NCBI GenBank assembly: GCA_900314495.1
Contig: OMVJ01000018.1
Location: 1 to 49,896 of the forward strand
Direction of reading: 5' to 3'
DNA length: 49,896 nucleotides
Source: an uncultured Olsenella sp.
GTDB taxonomy: Bacteria > Actinomycetota > Coriobacteriia > Coriobacteriales > Atopobiaceae
Below, piece by piece: positions 4,422 through 43,398 of the stretch. How positions within the stretch are numbered: position 1 is the stretch's first letter; each line of letters starts with the position of its first letter. The notes under the pieces are model-generated. The model saw only the letters and a program-made list of their open reading frames with translations. It did not search any database and was not told where the DNA came from. A program made the position numbers and the translations under genes.

Positions 4422-4509
4422 GGGGCATCCAATCAGTGGGGATCTGCGTGCGGGGCAAGCCCATACGTTACCAGAACGGTGCCCGGCGGCGGGGCCTGCG
4501 GCCAAACCC

Positions 4510-4625
4510 TACCCCACAACCGACATCCGCCGGTTGTGGGGTAATCCGCAACACCCCTGTCTACCTGCGGTTTTCTCGAAAAAACCAGCTACCCCACAAC
4601 CGAAGGCTTTCGGTTGTGGGGTAGC
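4510..4625 (-). repeat. Twin-hairpin repeat element, copy 1 (inverted orientation)
   Basis: Two hairpins flank a spacer of about 44 nt. Hairpin 1 (4510-4543) pairs TACCCCACAACCG with CGGTTGTGGGGTA around an 8-nt loop. Hairpin 2 (4588-4625) has a perfect 17-bp stem (4588-4604 with 4609-4625). The spacer, read on the minus strand, contains TTTTTCGAGAAAACCGCAGG, matching the spacers of the other copies at 26948, 28411 and 39689. It lies between the radical SAM gene and the 3' end of pckA. Confidence 0.85.
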
Positions 4626-7724: not shown

Positions 7725-9321
<1,597 letters not shown>

Positions 9322-15039: not shown

Positions 15040-16170
15040 CTACAGAACCTCGATGCGGCCGTTCTTGACGGTCAGGCCAATCTGCCCGCCAAGGAGCTGC
15101 TCCAGCGAGCGCCCCACCAGCTCGTACCGCCATCCCTTCGCCAGCCTGCCGGAGCCCCCGTTGACGGCAAAGTGCGTGAGCTCGTCCCGGGTGGCTATGA
15201 GCTGGGGCGCAACGCCCGACTTCTCGGACTTCAGGCGCAGCATGGCGTTCATGAGGTCCACCACGCTCTCCGTCTCGGCCGCGGGGCGTGCATGTCGCTC
15301 CACGTAGGGCAGGTCATCCGGGTCGCACAGAAGGCCCTTCCTTATGGCCGCCACCAGCTCCTCCGCATCCCGCGCGGGAATCTGCTCCGTGCCGCGAATC
15401 CGCTTCAGGCGCTCCGCCGTCTTGGGAGTGTGCCTGCAAATCTCCACCAGCACCTCGTCCGAGCAGACCCACTTGCGGGGAATGTCCCTGTACGCCGCCT
15501 TCTGCTCGCGCCAGGCGCACACCTCGCGCGCGATGGCCATCTGCTTGCGGGTGAGGGACCCGGACCTCTTCAGGTGCCGGTAGGCCTCGCGCGGGTTGCG
15601 CTCGTACTTGGCCGGGTCGCAGAGGTCGTCCATCTCGGGCGTGAGCCAGGACAGGCGGTCCCGGGCAATGAGCTCATCCATCATGCGCTCGTAGATGCCG
15701 GGCAGGTAGCGAACGTCATCCTCCGCGTAGACCAGCTGCTCCCGGTCCAGCGGCCGCTGAGACCAGTCCGTCAGGGACTCCGCCTTGGGCAGGCGAACCC
15801 CCGTGTACGCCTCCACCAGGGCGCCATAGCCAAGCTGCATGCGAAAGCCCAGGAAGGCGGCGGCAAGCTGGGTGTCGAAGACGGGGGCGGGCACGCAGCC
15901 CAGGGCGTCACGAATGACCTCCAGGTCCTGGCCACACGCGTGGAAGACCTTCGTGATGCGGGTGTCGGTGAGCAAGTCCACCAGAGGGTCCAGGTCCTGG
16001 ATCAGTATGGGGTCAATGGCAGCAATCTCGTCGGCCGTGCCAACCTGGATGAGGCAGAGCTTGGGGTAGTACGTCTTCTCGCGCAGGAACTCCGTGTCCA
16101 CGCCAAGGACCCTCGCCTCACCAGCACGCTCGCAGAAGGCCGCAAGCGCATCAGCATCGGATATGTACAC
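15040..16170 (-). CDS. rnd: Ribonuclease D
   Basis: A protein of 376 aa with a DEDDy 3'-5' exonuclease domain and C-terminal HRDC domain. Catalytic motifs: GVDTEFLRE (Exo I), HACGQDLEVI (Exo II) and YAEDDVRYL (Exo III with the tyrosine position at DVRYL). The HRDC region spans about residues 210-290. RNase D trims 3' ends of tRNA and other stable RNA precursors. The ATG at 16170 starts the conserved fold directly (MYISDADALAAF). It is divergent from the lipid kinase gene, with a shared 157-bp promoter gap. Confidence 0.95.
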   Translation of the reverse strand: MYISDADALAAFCERAGEARVLGVDTEFLREKTYYPKLCLIQVGTADEIAAIDPILIQDLDPLVDLLTDTRITKVFHACGQDLEVIRDALGCVPAPVFDTQLAAAFLGFRMQLGYGALVEAYTGVRLPKAESLTDWSQRPLDREQLVYAEDDVRYLPGIYERMMDELIARDRLSWLTPEMDDLCDPAKYERNPREAYRHLKRSGSLTRKQMAIAREVCAWREQKAAYRDIPRKWVCSDEVLVEICRHTPKTAERLKRIRGTEQIPARDAEELVAAIRKGLLCDPDDLPYVERHARPAAETESVVDLMNAMLRLKSEKSGVAPQLIATRDELTHFAVNGGSGRLAKGWRYELVGRSLEQLLGGQIGLTVKNGRIEVL

Positions 16171-16327
16171 GCTGTCTCTCGATTCGTTCTCGTTGTGCGA
16201 TGCGGGAGGACAACGGTACTATGGAGTCTCACCCGCAAGGCGCGGCTCTGACCTGCGCCCCACATCATCATAACCAAGATGCCTCTTGTGGCGGCAAGCA
16301 CCGCCATATCACCGCAAGGAGACCGCG

Positions 16328-17296
16328 ATGCGCACCCTCATCATCCACAACCCCGCCTCGGGCTTCGGTTCGGACGCCATCTACGAGTTCCAGCGGGCCC
16401 TCCTGTGCGAGGGCGACGAGTGCGTCATTCGCGTGATCAGGGTTGACCAGCCCAGCGCGCCGCTTGTTGCCGACGCGGAGAGCTTTGACCTGGTGGTCAT
16501 CTCGGGCGGTGACGGCACCGTCACGAGCGTCCTGTACGACCTGCGCAACAGGGACGTGCTGACCTGCGTCTTCCCCTCTGGCACCGCCAACCTATTCGTG
16601 GCAAACCTGGGCAACGCGCTGGAGCCCGCAGCCATCGCGCGTGCGTGCCGCATGGGCCACTCCGCGCGAACGGACCTTGGCGAGGTCATGTGGCTGGACC
16701 AGAACGGCCGCCGCAAGCGCGCGGGGTTCGGCCTCATGGCGGGCCTTGGGTACGACGCCCTCATCATGCAGGCGGCAATGTCCTCCAAGAAGCGCATGGG
16801 CGAGGCCGCCTACTTCGCCGCGGCGGTAACCAACCCAAAGCCGCAGGTGCAGCGCTTCACCATCACGGTGGACGGGGTAACGTACGAGCGCACGGGAATC
16901 TCCTGCATAGTCGCCAACACAGACATGATACAGGGCGACATAGAGATAGTGCCCGACTGCGTGATGAACGACGGACTCATCGACATCATCATGGTGGAGA
17001 CGCAGGATGCCGTGCAGCTGCTGAAGCCCGTCTTCTTCGGCCTTGTGGACCGCAACGGCAAGAAGATTGGCCGGCCCCGCCTGGAGACCTTCCGCGGCAG
17101 GGAGGTAAGGGTGGAGGTCACCGGGGAGCTTGCAATGCAGGTGGATGGCGACGTGGTCTCGCCGGGCATCAACGCCTTCATCGCCCGCGTGCTTCCCAGC
17201 GCAAACAAGCTCGTGGTGGACAGCCTCAGCCGCTACCACTCCAGCGACGAGGGTTCGCTCTTCGGCGGCACGGACCAGCCCCTCTTCCCAAAATGA
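16328..17296 (+). CDS. Diacylglycerol/lipid kinase family protein
   Basis: A protein of 322 aa of the DagK/YegS/LCB5 kinase family. The nucleotide-binding GGDGT is at about residue 63 (VISGGDGTVTSV), followed by FPSGTANLFVANLGN and a C-terminal beta-rich domain with NDGLIDIIMV and MQVDGDVVSPG. It likely phosphorylates a lipid at the membrane face; diacylglycerol is the common substrate but others are known. The start MRTLIIHNP at 16328 follows AAGGAGA. The TGA stop at 17294-17296 lies inside a 31-nt palindromic repeat (ATGAGAC), so the repeat forms the end of this gene. Confidence 0.92.
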   Translation: MRTLIIHNPASGFGSDAIYEFQRALLCEGDECVIRVIRVDQPSAPLVADAESFDLVVISGGDGTVTSVLYDLRNRDVLTCVFPSGTANLFVANLGNALEPAAIARACRMGHSARTDLGEVMWLDQNGRRKRAGFGLMAGLGYDALIMQAAMSSKKRMGEAAYFAAAVTNPKPQVQRFTITVDGVTYERTGISCIVANTDMIQGDIEIVPDCVMNDGLIDIIMVETQDAVQLLKPVFFGLVDRNGKKIGRPRLETFRGREVRVEVTGELAMQVDGDVVSPGINAFIARVLPSANKLVVDSLSRYHSSDEGSLFGGTDQPLFPK

Positions 17297-26947: not shown

Positions 26948-27064
26948 GCTACCCCACAACCGAAAGCCGTCGGTTGTGGGGTAGCGTGCTTTTCTATAGA
27001 AATCGCAGGTAAACACCCGTGTCTCGCTCTACCCCATAACCGAAAGGTGTCGGTTATGGGGTAG
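26948..27064 (+). repeat. Twin-hairpin repeat element, copy 2
   Basis: Hairpin 1 (26948-26985) has a 15-bp stem GCTACCCCACAACCG with an 8-nt loop AAAGCCGT. Hairpin 2 (27029-27064) has a 14-bp stem in which CATAACC pairs with GGTTATG, a compensated change from the CACAACC/GGTTGTG of other copies. The 43-nt spacer reads TTTTCTATAGAAATCGCAGG and then TAAACACCCGTGTC. The remaining gap to 27299 holds the palindrome TTGTGCACAA (27258-27267) and probably the promoter of the next gene; nothing else was recognised. Confidence 0.88.
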
Positions 27065-27299
27065 GCTTTCAGCGGAGACGAGCCGCTCCGAACCCCACCC
27101 GACGCGACTCGCGCCACGTATGGAACTCAGTTCTGTGGATACCATGACGTGGTTCAGGAGCCATACTTTCTGCAGCGACGCCAATCACGGAAGCGCACCA
27201 CTTGCGAGCGGCCTTGATAGCATGATGCCGCATCTTGTTGCAATGTTCACCAACGCCTTGTGCACAATAAGTGCAAGTAGGCACCGCTACCCTCAAGGC

Positions 27300-28379
27300 A
27301 TGGACAACAGCACAGTCATCCTTGCAGGTTCAAGCGCAACGCGACTTTACAGAAGCGCTTGCACCCCCGGGACAAAGAACAACCAAACGAGCGAGTGGGC
27401 ACTTTCCATAGGGCTGCGCATCGCCAATCCGGAAGGACTGCAGCTGAATGGTCAACCCGCAGCAGAGCAATCGCGGAGCGCAGAATGCGGGACGAATCCT
27501 GGGGAGGAGCTTCTTGACCACACCACCTGTAGCCCAAAGCAGATTGCGAAAGCGCTGGAAGCTCTGAACCTGCCATACAAGCTCAACGAGTCACAAACCG
27601 ACCTCCTGTTTTCATCACCAAACAAGAGGCCGCACCTGCCTGCCGTCAAGCCGCATGTATGGAGTGGCCCCGTTCCACAGGGGGCACTTATTCAACTTAG
27701 GGACGACGTTGCCGCCTGCTCGCCAGAGTTTCTTTTCCTGACCAGGTCACCGGAACTCGGATTCATCAAGACCATACGGCTGGGGTGCGAGCTTTGTGGC
27801 AACTACTCTCTGGACGCGAGCAAGAGGGGCTTTAACGAACATCCGCCGTTCACCACCACCGACAAGCTATGGAAGTTTGTGAACTCGTGCGGCGGAGCAT
27901 ATGGCGCCAAGGCGGCACGGAAGGCGCTCAGGTGGGTGGCCGATGGTCTCAGGTCGCCTGCCGAGTGCAATCAATACCTGTTGCTCGCTCTCCCAAAGGA
28001 GATGGGGGCGTACGGGCTCAGAGATTCCCTCGAGGTAAACGTAAAGATTCCGGTACCGAGAGAGCTGTGGCACCTCAGCGAGGTTCACGAGTACGAGGTT
28101 GACCTTCTGGGGCGCAGCGGTCCGGTCATCATCGAATATGACGGCGCAGACCACGATGACACGGAGCAGCAGGCCCGCGACATGGTCAAGACGCGAGTCC
28201 TGCAGCAAATGGGATACCTGGTAATCAGGGTCAACAAGGCAATTCTTGGCAGCCCCTACCGCTTCGACAAGGTTGGGCGCAGCATATGCGAGCAGGTCGG
28301 CGAGACCGTACCCACCTACAACACCGACTTCGCCAACAATCGCACTAAGCTGCGAAACCAGATCTTCGAGAAGTTCTAG
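27300..28379 (+). CDS. DUF559/VSR-like (PD-(D/E)XK-type) protein
   Basis: A protein of 359 aa. The C-terminal 100 residues resemble the DUF559/VSR nuclease-like fold: YEVDLLG, IIEYDGADH, then a helix with ARDMVKTRVLQQMGYLVIRV. The Asp, Glu, Asp-x-x-His and Arg pattern is what the fold needs for metal-dependent cleavage. The N-terminus (VILAGSSATRLYRS) looks like the short DNA-associated start of AbiEi-type or DUF559 proteins in actinobacteria. The start ATG 27300 fits this N-terminus; an open frame from 27120 adds dissimilar residues. Its DNA is visibly less GC-rich than its neighbours. It is bracketed by direct copies of the twin-hairpin repeat. Function is unknown; a role in defence or repeat mobility is only inference. 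Confidence 0.65.
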   Translation: MDNSTVILAGSSATRLYRSACTPGTKNNQTSEWALSIGLRIANPEGLQLNGQPAAEQSRSAECGTNPGEELLDHTTCSPKQIAKALEALNLPYKLNESQTDLLFSSPNKRPHLPAVKPHVWSGPVPQGALIQLRDDVAACSPEFLFLTRSPELGFIKTIRLGCELCGNYSLDASKRGFNEHPPFTTTDKLWKFVNSCGGAYGAKAARKALRWVADGLRSPAECNQYLLLALPKEMGAYGLRDSLEVNVKIPVPRELWHLSEVHEYEVDLLGRSGPVIIEYDGADHDDTEQQARDMVKTRVLQQMGYLVIRVNKAILGSPYRFDKVGRSICEQVGETVPTYNTDFANNRTKLRNQIFEKF

Positions 28380-28410
28380 GAGCCCGCGGAGTCCGTCTTA
28401 GTCCAATAGC

Positions 28411-28523
28411 CTTACCCCACAAACGAACGCCTCCGGTTGTGGGGTAAGAGGCCTCTTTGACAATTTCGCAGGTCAGAGGCATTGTATGAAACTGCCCACA
28501 ACCGAAAGCCGCCGGTTGTGGGG
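28411..28523 (+). repeat. Twin-hairpin repeat element, copy 3
   Basis: Hairpin 1 (28411-28448) pairs CTTACCCCACAAACG with CGGTTGTGGGGTAAG, one A-G mismatch, loop of 8 nt. Hairpin 2 (28495-28522) is reduced to a 10-bp stem CCCACAACCG with loop AAAGCCGC; its left outer arm is missing. The spacer holds CTTTGACAATTTCGCAGG. It has the same orientation as copy 2, so the DUF559-like gene lies between direct repeats. Confidence 0.85.
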
Positions 28524-28585
28524 TAGCCGACTTGCACGGCAAGGCCACCAGCCCAGCATGGCCATGCCGCACAAACCCGCAGCTG

Positions 28586-39688: not shown

Positions 39689-39806
39689 CGCCACCTCACA
39701 ACCGACAGCTTCCACTTGTGAGGTGGCGCGATTTCTTGACAAACCCGCAGTTAAACGGCCACGTGTCGCTCTACCTCACAACCGAACAACGTCGGTTGTG
39801 AGGTAG
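39689..39806 (+). repeat. Twin-hairpin repeat element, copy 4
   Basis: Hairpin 1 (39689-39728) has a 13-bp stem CGCCACCTCACAA; hairpin 2 (39771-39806) has a 14-bp stem CTACCTCACAACCG with loop AACAACGT. Both hairpins carry CCTCAC/GTGAGG where other copies have CCCCAC/GTGGGG, so pairing is kept. The spacer has TTTCTTGACAAACCCGCAG and ends ACGTGTCGCT as in copy 2. It lies between the convergent HD and surface-protein genes; the rest of the 39606-39906 gap holds a terminator and nothing else. Confidence 0.88.
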
Positions 39807-39830
39807 CAGGCTTGCCCCCTATGACCCGCA

Positions 39831-39906: not shown

Positions 39907-42900
39907 CTAGTCCTTCAGCCCAAGGCGCTTCTTAGCGGCAACGAGCAGCGCTGCACCGCCTGCAAGGAGGCCGGCAGCGACGCCGTTGTTGGTGGCGTCG
40001 CCTGTGGCGGGCGTCGCGCTCTTCGCCATGGCAGCCTTGGCGGGGGCGGACTTGGCGACTGCCTGCTTCACCGGAGTCTCTGCGGACTTCTGCGCTGCGG
40101 GCTTCGTCGGCTGCACGGGCTGCTCGGGCTGCGCCGGCTGGTCGGGCTGCGCCGGAGCCGAAGGCTGATCGGGCTTAGCGGGCTGGTCCGGCGTATCCGG
40201 CTGGTCGGGCTTGCTGGGCTCGGGCTTCTTGTCCCACTGGGCAATGATCTCCACGTCGCCGTGGAGCTGCTGGCTGGGGTCGAAGTCCTGGCCATCGGCC
40301 GTCTTCCAGCCCTTGAAGTCATAGCCGTCGCGGGTGGGCGTTTCAACGCTGACCTTGTTGTCATCGCCAGCGGTGATGACCTTGGTTTCGTTCTTGCCAT
40401 CGCCATCGGCGTCGTAACCGTAGTCCACGGTTGCCTGCGGCACGGGCTCGACCTGGATAGTGTCATTCGAAGCGGGAGCAGCCTCGGCAACCTCGGCAAC
40501 CGCCATCGCACGCATGTGGCGCGGCGCAGCCTTGGCGGCAGAAGCCTCCGCCATGGTCCAAGCGCGCTTGCGCGGGCGGGAAGTCATGTCGTAGACGAGC
40601 TCGTAGGTGACGTCGGGCGAGCCAGCAACACGACGGTAGGTACGGCCCATCGCGGCACTGTACTTGGCGATGTAGGCGTCGTAGTCCGTGAGCGTGATGG
40701 TCGTGCGGCAAGTGCCCGTGGCATCGTCGTAGGCAATCGCGGAGTGGTCGAAGGTACCCTGTGCCAGGTCGTACTCCTTGGTGGTGGTGCCGTCGGACAC
40801 CTTCACCTTACCAGTGATGGGCGCCACGTCCCACACGGCGATCTGGTACTGGCCCACGGAGGAGAGGCCCCACTTGCCGTCCTTGTACTCAAGGTCGTAG
40901 CTCAGTGGCACTCTGGTCAGGCCGTTCTCGCTCACGTAGAACTTGCCGGGGTTCTCAGAGTTGAGCTTGTCGATGTAAGCCTGCTGGCCCTGGCCCACGA
41001 TGGTGAGGTGCGCGTGGGTTCCGTCGTACTCAACGGTGTAGGTGTCGGGCAGGATGTTGTAGGTCGCGAACGTCTCCTCGACGTCACGATCCACCAGGTA
41101 GACCGCAGGCTCACCCATGGCGGCGTTCACGTCGTCAGTCGTGAGGGTGATGTCCTTCACCCAGATGTACTGGTCGGGCTCGAAGGTGCTCACCCACTTG
41201 CCGTCGCGGTAGTACAGGTAGAAGCGGCGGCTGGTGTTGTCGGGGTTGTTGAGGTTGACGTAGTGCTTGCCCTCAGACTCGCCGTTCAGCTTGTCGATGT
41301 AGGGCTGGGTGCCCTCGTCGCCCTTCTTGATGACGATGGAGGCGCTGATGCTGCCGTTCCTGCCCTGGGAGACCTTCACGTCGTAGGTGCCGTCGATGAG
41401 GCCGTACTTTGCGACCTCAGGCGTGTTGCGGCGACCCTTGTACTCGCGCATGGTGATGGCGGCGTTGTTGATCGCGGCGTTGATCGTGGCGGTGCTGGGC
41501 GTGAGGTCCTTGACGTAGATGTACTGGTCGGTGAAGCGGTTGGTCCACTCGCCGGTGGCGGGGTCGTAGTACACGACGAAGGACAGGCGCGTGTTGTCCG
41601 GGTTGTTGAGGTTCACGTAGAACTTGCCCTCGGCAACGGGCAGCTTGTTGAGCGCGTCGACGTAGGCCTGGTGGGCGTCCTGGTTGATGACGATGGTCGC
41701 GCTGGACTTGCCGGTCTTGGCGTTGGTGCCGTAGCTCACCGTGTAGGTGCCGTCAATCAGCGGGATGTTGGCGATCTCGGGCGTGTTGCGGCGGCCCTTG
41801 TACTCGCGCATGGTGACCGCGTTGTCCTTGATGGCCTGGTTGATCTGATCCGTGGTGAGGGAGTTGTCCTTGACCCAGATGTACTGGTCGGGCTCGAAGG
41901 AGCTGGTCCACTTGCCGTCGCGGTAGTACAGGTAGAAGCGGCGGCTCGTGTTGTCGGGGTTGTTGAGGTTCACGTAGCACTTGCCAGCAGCGGCATCCGA
42001 CTTGTTGAAGGCGTCGATGTAGGCCTGGTGCTCGTCCTGGTTGATCTTGATGCTGGCGCTGATGCCGCTGGTACCGTTGCCCACGGTGACCGTGTACGTG
42101 CCGTCGAGCAGGCCGACGGTACCCAGGTCCTTGCCCTTGGCGTCGCGGATCCTGATGCCGGCGTTGTTGATTGCGGTGTTAATCTCGTCCAGTGTGGGGG
42201 CGTCGAGCTTCTTTACGATGATGTCGGACGGGACGGGATCGAAGATTCCCCACGCGTCCTCATCCTCGCTGTACTCGAGGGTCAGGTCGTAGGTGATGTT
42301 CTTCCACTCGCCATCGAGCGCGTAGGCACCGCCCTTGGTCTTGGCGTACTTCTGCACGTAGGGATAGGGGTTGGTGATGGTGACGGTCACCTTGTAACGG
42401 TTGCCAAGGTCCTGGACGTCACCGATCTTGTAGGAGTAGCGAAGGATGTCGTAGGTCTCCTGTGTATCGGTATCAACCCAGTCGTAGTCCTCATAGCGGA
42501 GGCCCACGTTCACGACCTGCCTGAGCTCTGCCTCCACCTGCTTCTTGGTGGGCTTTGCAGGGATGACCTTCTTCAGGTCGATAACCAGCGCGTTGTCGTC
42601 CTCGTTGGCAGCGAACCAACCGGCGGGATCCCAGTCAGTAGCTTCCCTGTAGATGAGGTCGAACACCTTCTCCTTGAAGGCACCCGCCGCGACATGCTTG
42701 CCAAGGATGGAGCGATACTCCTCGTTGAAGGCATCCACGTAAGCCTGCTGGCCGTCGGCCTTGATGGTCAGGGCGGAGTGATAGGTGCCGTCCTCGGCCT
42801 TGGTCACCGGACCGAACTCGAGCTTGCCCTTGTCGATGGAAGGCTCCACGTAATAGCCGTTGCCCTGGGTCTGGACGTGCACGTACACGTCGTTCACGGT

Positions 42901-43398
42901 CTCGGCGGTGGGAGCACTCGGGGCGTCATCCTCGACGGGTGTGACCACGATGACGTCAGAGTTCTTGTTGGCGTCTGCCGGTGCCTTGGCCGGCGCTTCA
43001 GCCGGCGCCTCCGCAGGAGCGTCGGCCGCCGACTCAGCCGGAGCCTCGGCGGGCGTTACCTCCGCCGGCTTCTCCTCTGCCGTGGCCGTGCTCGCATCCG
43101 CGGTAGCCGCGGACTCCGCCACCGTTTCGGCGGCAGGCTCTGCAGCGACCTCTTTTGTGGCAACGGGCTCGGCAGCGGGCTCGGCCGCCGGCTCCGCAAC
43201 GGGCTCGGCAGCGGCCTCTACCACAGCCGTGGGCTCGACAACAGCCATGTGCTGCGGCTGGGCCTTCTCCTGCTCAATGGCAACGGGCTCCACCGCGGCA
43301 GCGGTATCGGCCTCCTCGGCGAGTGCGGGCACAACGCCGACGCTGAACGACAGCGCTGCCGCGATGGCGGCCGCGGCAATCTTACCGTGAACGTTCAT
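39907..43398 (-). CDS. Large repeat-containing cell-wall surface protein
   Basis: A secreted protein of 1163 aa. An N-terminal signal peptide (KIAAAAIAAALSFSVGVVPALA, residues 6-27 or so) is followed by about 120 residues rich in Ala, Glu and Pro, then several modules of about 115-120 residues that each contain NLNNPDNT, a YYRDGKW-like strand, DQYIWVKD, MREYKGRRNTPE and LIDGTYTV. Near residue 990 is a calcium-loop-like YDADGDGKNE, then an InlB/Flg_new_2-like repeat (GYDFKGWKTADGQDFDPS), a Pro/Gln/Asp-rich wall-spanning tail (PDQPDTPDQP) and a sortase-like signal TPATGD with a hydrophobic stretch and KKRLGLKD end. The motif is a variant of LPXTG. It is probably an adhesin. The start at 43398 follows AGAAGGGAT. 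The upstream gap 43399-43685 shows no clear promoter. Confidence 0.9.
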   Translation of the reverse strand: MNVHGKIAAAAIAAALSFSVGVVPALAEEADTAAAVEPVAIEQEKAQPQHMAVVEPTAVVEAAAEPVAEPAAEPAAEPVATKEVAAEPAAETVAESAATADASTATAEEKPAEVTPAEAPAESAADAPAEAPAEAPAKAPADANKNSDVIVVTPVEDDAPSAPTAETVNDVYVHVQTQGNGYYVEPSIDKGKLEFGPVTKAEDGTYHSALTIKADGQQAYVDAFNEEYRSILGKHVAAGAFKEKVFDLIYREATDWDPAGWFAANEDDNALVIDLKKVIPAKPTKKQVEAELRQVVNVGLRYEDYDWVDTDTQETYDILRYSYKIGDVQDLGNRYKVTVTITNPYPYVQKYAKTKGGAYALDGEWKNITYDLTLEYSEDEDAWGIFDPVPSDIIVKKLDAPTLDEINTAINNAGIRIRDAKGKDLGTVGLLDGTYTVTVGNGTSGISASIKINQDEHQAYIDAFNKSDAAAGKCYVNLNNPDNTSRRFYLYYRDGKWTSSFEPDQYIWVKDNSLTTDQINQAIKDNAVTMREYKGRRNTPEIANIPLIDGTYTVSYGTNAKTGKSSATIVINQDAHQAYVDALNKLPVAEGKFYVNLNNPDNTRLSFVVYYDPATGEWTNRFTDQYIYVKDLTPSTATINAAINNAAITMREYKGRRNTPEVAKYGLIDGTYDVKVSQGRNGSISASIVIKKGDEGTQPYIDKLNGESEGKHYVNLNNPDNTSRRFYLYYRDGKWVSTFEPDQYIWVKDITLTTDDVNAAMGEPAVYLVDRDVEETFATYNILPDTYTVEYDGTHAHLTIVGQGQQAYIDKLNSENPGKFYVSENGLTRVPLSYDLEYKDGKWGLSSVGQYQIAVWDVAPITGKVKVSDGTTTKEYDLAQGTFDHSAIAYDDATGTCRTTITLTDYDAYIAKYSAAMGRTYRRVAGSPDVTYELVYDMTSRPRKRAWTMAEASAAKAAPRHMRAMAVAEVAEAAPASNDTIQVEPVPQATVDYGYDADGDGKNETKVITAGDDNKVSVETPTRDGYDFKGWKTADGQDFDPSQQLHGDVEIIAQWDKKPEPSKPDQPDTPDQPAKPDQPSAPAQPDQPAQPEQPVQPTKPAAQKSAETPVKQAVAKSAPAKAAMAKSATPATGDATNNGVAAGLLAGGAALLVAAKKRLGLKD

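Follow-up and report, generated by a model that had tools for sequence, protein, structure and literature searches.

Twin-hairpin elements bracket a single gene in the window

Within the 49,896-nt stretch of DNA analysed here (the window), a gene for a 359-aa protein (27300-28379, + strand) lies between two copies of a twin-hairpin element (TH), one to its left (26948-27065, + strand) and one to its right (28411-28527, + strand). A preliminary description made from the letters alone had proposed that copies in the same orientation flank a single gene, and this was borne out, although their lengths were 118 and 117 nt rather than the 115 bp given there. TH comprises two stems of 10-15 bp (consensus GCTACCCCACAACCG-N8-CGGTTGTGGGGTAGC) with a pitch of ~80 nt (80 nt in the left bracket), and the linker between the hairpins is asymmetric and contains CGCAGGT (core ATCGCAGGTAAA in the left bracket and TTCGCAGGTCAG in the right). 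Two further copies, at 4508-4625 (− strand) and 39690-39807 (+ strand), stand without a nuclease gene, again as first described; the latter carries compensated C-to-T stem changes (ACCTCACAACCG / CGGTTGTGAGGT). Repetitive stretches with 9-nt and 357-nt spacing were also seen at 40091-42061, inside a large gene (39907-43398, − strand).

The hairpin pattern matched five times in the window against 0.01 matches expected, and single-strand folding compared with shuffled sequence gave z-scores of −9.7 and −5.4 for the two brackets. Across TH copies, eight stem pairs had changed on both sides versus 1.9 ± 1.1 in shuffles. The two brackets share only 68% identity, which is the average for the TH family; they are therefore not the product of a recent duplication, and the locus gives no sign of recent activity. 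The palindrome noted earlier in the gap upstream of the gene (TTGTGCACAA, 27258-27267, no strand assigned) is present, but its significance is weak, since 5/100 shuffles also contain TTGTGCACAA, and we give it little weight. An Rfam scan of the window matched nothing, and 0 families matched from the PADLOC models of known anti-phage defence systems.

The bracketed gene encodes a DUF559 protein

Both properties originally ascribed to the gene, a lower GC content and a PD-(D/E)XK-like product, were confirmed. Its GC content was 57.5% versus 63.7% for the window (GC3, 0.70 versus a mean of 0.87), and the C-terminal part of the protein matched Pfam PF04480 (DUF559; E = 6e-8, 32.9 bits, cut-off 20.6), a Vsr-type PD-(D/E)XK nuclease domain. 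Conservation across 80 homologues was 100% for D268, 95% for E279, 97% for H285 and 88% for D294, all four of which are found in the window protein, and column 297 is R in 86% of the homologues and K in the window protein. Such near-invariance of D268, E279 and H285 makes it probable that the enzyme is active.

Weaker matches were obtained with Pfam MTES_1575, in 11/14 family members, and in an hmmsearch of the family profile against solved structures. The latter returned 3hrl (an endonuclease-like protein, E = 0.0005) and 3r3p ('Mobile intron protein', E = 0.009), which we take to be the EDxHD homing endonuclease I-Bth0305I. The N-terminal two thirds of the protein matched no Pfam family, and a possible resemblance of this region to AbiEi was rejected for want of Pfam support. 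There was no match to the HUH transposase family Y1_Tnp in the window protein. A single-sequence AlphaFold model of the protein had a pLDDT of 33 and was set aside.

Distribution of TH in the source genome and its relatives

A covariance model of TH, built from 14 copies, identified, between the genes of the 2.8-Mb source assembly, ~23 complete copies along with a few lone hairpins. In 21/22 contexts the element followed a stop codon at a distance of ~30-100 nt, and both orientations occurred; by comparison, 28% of the window's intergenic bases lie at such distances. A T-rich stretch commonly comes after hairpin 1. A simple terminator role was rejected, as the T-run is found on only one hairpin and orientation is mixed.

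The TH stem was absent from two genomes of the same genus and from the other relatives tested outside a genus designated g9, and no comparable TH family occurred among 139 other genomes of the family, g9 excepted. Searching 84,980 species genomes, from which records of the source genome were possibly left out, for the exact stem pattern returned only two unrelated single hairpins, and viral contigs and phage records returned none. We found no clean pair of empty and filled sites, with a footprint, for a TH-only insertion, and no target-site duplication was established for the elements. Twin hairpins with other stems and the linker GCAGGTAGA were seen in two convergent gaps, argF/trpS in G005 (L049) and thrB/livF in G007 (L050); neither stretch read contained a DUF559 gene.

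Bracketing is frequent among DUF559 homologues

We surveyed 80 DUF559 loci, picked by protein similarity. At each, 500 bp upstream together with 150 bp of the open frame, the latter added because start codons are uncertain, was compared on both strands with 500 bp downstream, and scores of at least 40 bits were taken as a match. A matched flanking pair was present at 37/80 loci, comprising 30/52 loci in the family of the source genome and 7/28 in the other families of the order; 25 pairs were direct and 12 inverted. Among control genes, 1/124 was bracketed, and that one was a RAYT, a known repeat-bracketed transposase. The difference between DUF559 and other genes (Fisher test, P = 4e-17) is an upper bound on its strength, since related loci are not independent. 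The preliminary description had linked the nuclease to the hairpins, and the flanking of homologues beyond chance largely favours a link of this kind; most homologues, however, have other arms or no detectable bracket rather than this particular hairpin.

The matched stretches were mostly 75-280 bp long and mostly had inverted-repeat ends, the arms of which differed by gene lineage. Unbiased k-mer counting placed CGCAGGT as the top 7-mer, at 14/37 loci versus 0.7 expected. Element similarity rose with protein similarity (Mantel test, 0/2000 permutations), a covariation confounded by the contribution of orthologous loci. One match (L177) spans only 41 bp and may be false. At another locus (L144, G138:C8), the DUF559 gene sits between inverted 94-bp elements that are 96% identical, with arms GACTGACCACAACCTTTCT. 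Detectable brackets were missing at over half of the tested homologues, including nearly all of those in G031, and within the source genome 5/11 DUF559 paralogues were bracketed and 6/11 were not. A Collinsella aerofaciens homologue also lacked a bracket. Homologues without a bracket may have lost their elements, may have more diverged ones or may never have had them.

Dispersed element families and bracketed toxin-antitoxin modules

Another DUF559 gene of the source genome, on contig C29, has a separate bracket with TCCCAAAAAATTGACAA arms, five solo copies of which occur at C35, C54, C15, C57 and C42. Toxin-antitoxin modules were also bracketed. On C55 (L051, C55:7501-27000, positions 15968-16985), a MazE/AbrB-type antitoxin and a PIN toxin lie between two TH copies that are identical over 98 bp, with identity stopping in the loop of hairpin 2. 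On C42 (L052, C42:43500-54500, positions 7903-8892), a small gene and then a PemK/MazF-type toxin have one lone TH hairpin on one side and a complete TH on the other.

In genus g4, a GGGTATGTACACCCC element found in about a dozen copies per genome brackets a DUF559 gene beside hisS. Here, G116 and G110 (L220 and L222, the HicAB state) are arranged as element-HicAB-element-DUF559-element, and G120 (L221, the state without HicAB) as element-DUF559-element. On alignment of G116 with G120, the flanks were ~92% identical and the difference was HicAB plus exactly one element.

The two RAYT-type Y1 transposase genes of the source genome, on C50 (L024) and C55 (L025), are flanked by TGACAAAAGGGGACGTTTCCCTTTTGTCA-like repeats and make up a REP-like system of their own. 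RAYT was rejected as the mobiliser of TH because both Y1 genes carry these other repeats. No candidate recombinase was seen adjoining the elements, and no integrase was noticed among the genes called around element loci.

Orthologous loci with and without the nuclease gene

Genus g9 was found through weak covariance-model matches, and its TH-like element has a 63-nt pitch and the stems ACTCACAACC. The order TH-DUF559-TH was present in five g9 species (G010, G142, G147, G150 and G154), the DUF559 genes of which were 64-88% identical among three compared and 65-69% for two more, and element and gene co-occurred in the genus (Fisher test, P = 0.02). In a sixth species, G145, a single TH, with no nuclease gene, separates a GH1 gene from the gene that also lies downstream in G010. 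The outer hairpins of G010 carry the stem variant of the G145 element, and its inner ones carry a different variant. Recombination of a TH-gene unit into a solo TH would leave such a pattern, which is suggestive only. One filled/empty comparison was also available at the GNAT/RpiB gap (G142 versus G010), where the gap without TH holds other hairpins.

The idea, put forward in the preliminary description, of a mobile or domesticated cassette was partly supported; the empty-site comparison in relatives largely agrees with it, G145 having one TH at the place where G010 has TH-DUF559-TH. This presence/absence of gene plus TH is observed, whereas mobility and an action of the nuclease on the hairpins are what we infer. 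Two findings go beyond that description: the repeats are gene-lineage-specific (the window TH is found here only, and g9 has one that resembles it), and brackets also surround toxin-antitoxin modules.

Explanations for the arrangement

The window locus is one member of an order-wide arrangement in which a DUF559 gene is flanked on both sides by a palindromic miniature element of its own. These elements have gene-lineage-specific inverted-repeat arms and the recurring core CGCAGGT, and solo copies are dispersed in the families tested, namely the window TH, the second family of the source genome and those of genera g4 and g9. Gene-plus-one-element presence/absence is observed for DUF559 with TH (G010 versus G145) and for HicAB with its element (G116 versus G120). 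We think it somewhat probable that the DUF559 nuclease acts on its own flanking cognate elements, with binding, cleavage and mobility presumed. The arrangement would then be like that of RAYT/REPIN, but with a nuclease that is not homologous to RAYT. The DUF559 protein would recognise its cognate element and nick or cut the element DNA. Repair or copying after the cut would then spread solo elements between genes, and the same processes could carry the gene, together with one element, into a solo copy, yielding element-gene-element; toxin-antitoxin modules between element copies would travel likewise. More tentatively, the arrangement may represent a new mobile-element class, in which a Vsr/EDxHD-type nuclease, and no transposase, mobilises its own palindromic elements together with nuclease and toxin-antitoxin cassettes.

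We regard it as rather unlikely that the elements are instead recombination sites or MITEs worked by another enzyme, or substrates for homologous recombination between dispersed copies, with DUF559 and toxin-antitoxin genes accumulating between the copies as selfish or defence cargo in an integron-like manner. The bracketing of three different toxin-antitoxin modules (MazE/AbrB with PIN and the PemK/MazF type in the source genome, HicAB in g4) would fit such accumulation, as would the gain or loss of HicAB and one element with DUF559 retained. However, bracketed DUF559 lineages own separate element families, and the families that were tracked occur in genomes that carry either the cognate gene or the corresponding site without it. 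Bracketing was also far commoner for DUF559 than for other genes, no candidate recombinase lies beside the elements and the two RAYTs have other repeats.

A regulatory or structural role seems less probable again. TH would then be terminators or 3'-end RNA elements spread by gene conversion, which DUF559 at most binds, for example in regulating its own locus. The regular placement of TH past stop codons (21/22 copies, against 28% of window intergenic bases), the T-rich stretch that often follows hairpin 1 and the presence of TH, in one gap, at the place of a relative's ordinary hairpins are all compatible with this, but the mixed orientation relative to genes and the restriction of the T-run to one hairpin count against it. 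Moreover, each pair has one of its elements upstream of the DUF559 gene, and the linker core recurs among families that have unrelated arms and are lineage-specific and dispersed. Chance placement of a nuclease gene between copies of an unrelated dispersed repeat is highly improbable, for although other TH copies lack a nuclease gene and the two window brackets resemble each other only to an average degree, the arrangement recurs at 36 further DUF559 loci with mostly unrelated repeats (P = 4e-17 versus other genes).

These genomes commonly encode DUF559 proteins, on whose function here we found no open-access paper; of the open-access papers mentioning DUF559, none appears, by title and abstract, to describe the bracketed arrangement. 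The pattern looks like a selfish or mobile gene system of a kind not described before. If DUF559 nucleases do act on their cognate elements, dozens of natural gene/target pairs would be available for comparing protein specificity with DNA target, and the precise gain and loss of toxin-antitoxin and nuclease cassettes in gut actinobacteria (Coriobacteriia) would have a mechanism.

Comparison with known systems

Like MITEs and composite transposons, the arrangement consists of short inverted-repeat elements that flank genes and have dispersed solo copies. It differs in that no known transposase was found with such arms, no target-site duplication was established and the gene between the elements is from a nuclease family. 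Integron cassettes are similar in placing single genes and toxin-antitoxin modules between sequence-variable hairpin sites (attC), with a module and one site gained or lost. In contrast to integrons, no integrase was noticed around the element loci, the sites are scattered over the genome rather than gathered in one array and a third of bracket pairs are inverted (12/37). The attC R-box also differs from the core CGCAGGT.

A resemblance to EDxHD homing endonucleases, such as I-Bth0305I (PMC3943268), possibly lies in chemistry, given the weak match of the family profile to the catalytic domain (E = 0.009). By analogy, the exchange of gene plus one element would be accounted for if an element lacking the gene were cut and repaired. 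Here, however, no intron or intein was seen, two complete palindromic elements flank the gene, the elements are dispersed and the N-terminal region of the DUF559 protein differs, with no Pfam match.

The likeness to RAYT/REPIN systems, REP-associated tyrosine transposases with their hairpin doublets (PMC3116915, PMC2817692), extends to several features. A single gene adjoins copies of its own palindromic doublet, with one element family per gene; solo copies are dispersed extragenically (~23 for the window TH, and likewise in the C29, g4 and g9 families); and several distinct gene/element pairs may share a genome. The elements described here differ in their length of 75-280 bp, their CGCAGGT core and the bracketing of toxin-antitoxin modules, and the RAYTs of the source genome carry repeats other than TH. 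The enzyme is a DUF559/Vsr-type nuclease rather than an HUH Y1 transposase and, being unrelated to RAYT, places the DUF559 arrangement outside the RAYT family. If each bracketed DUF559 gene acts on its own element, the arrangement would be a second, independently evolved solution of the RAYT/REPIN type, based on a restriction-type nuclease.
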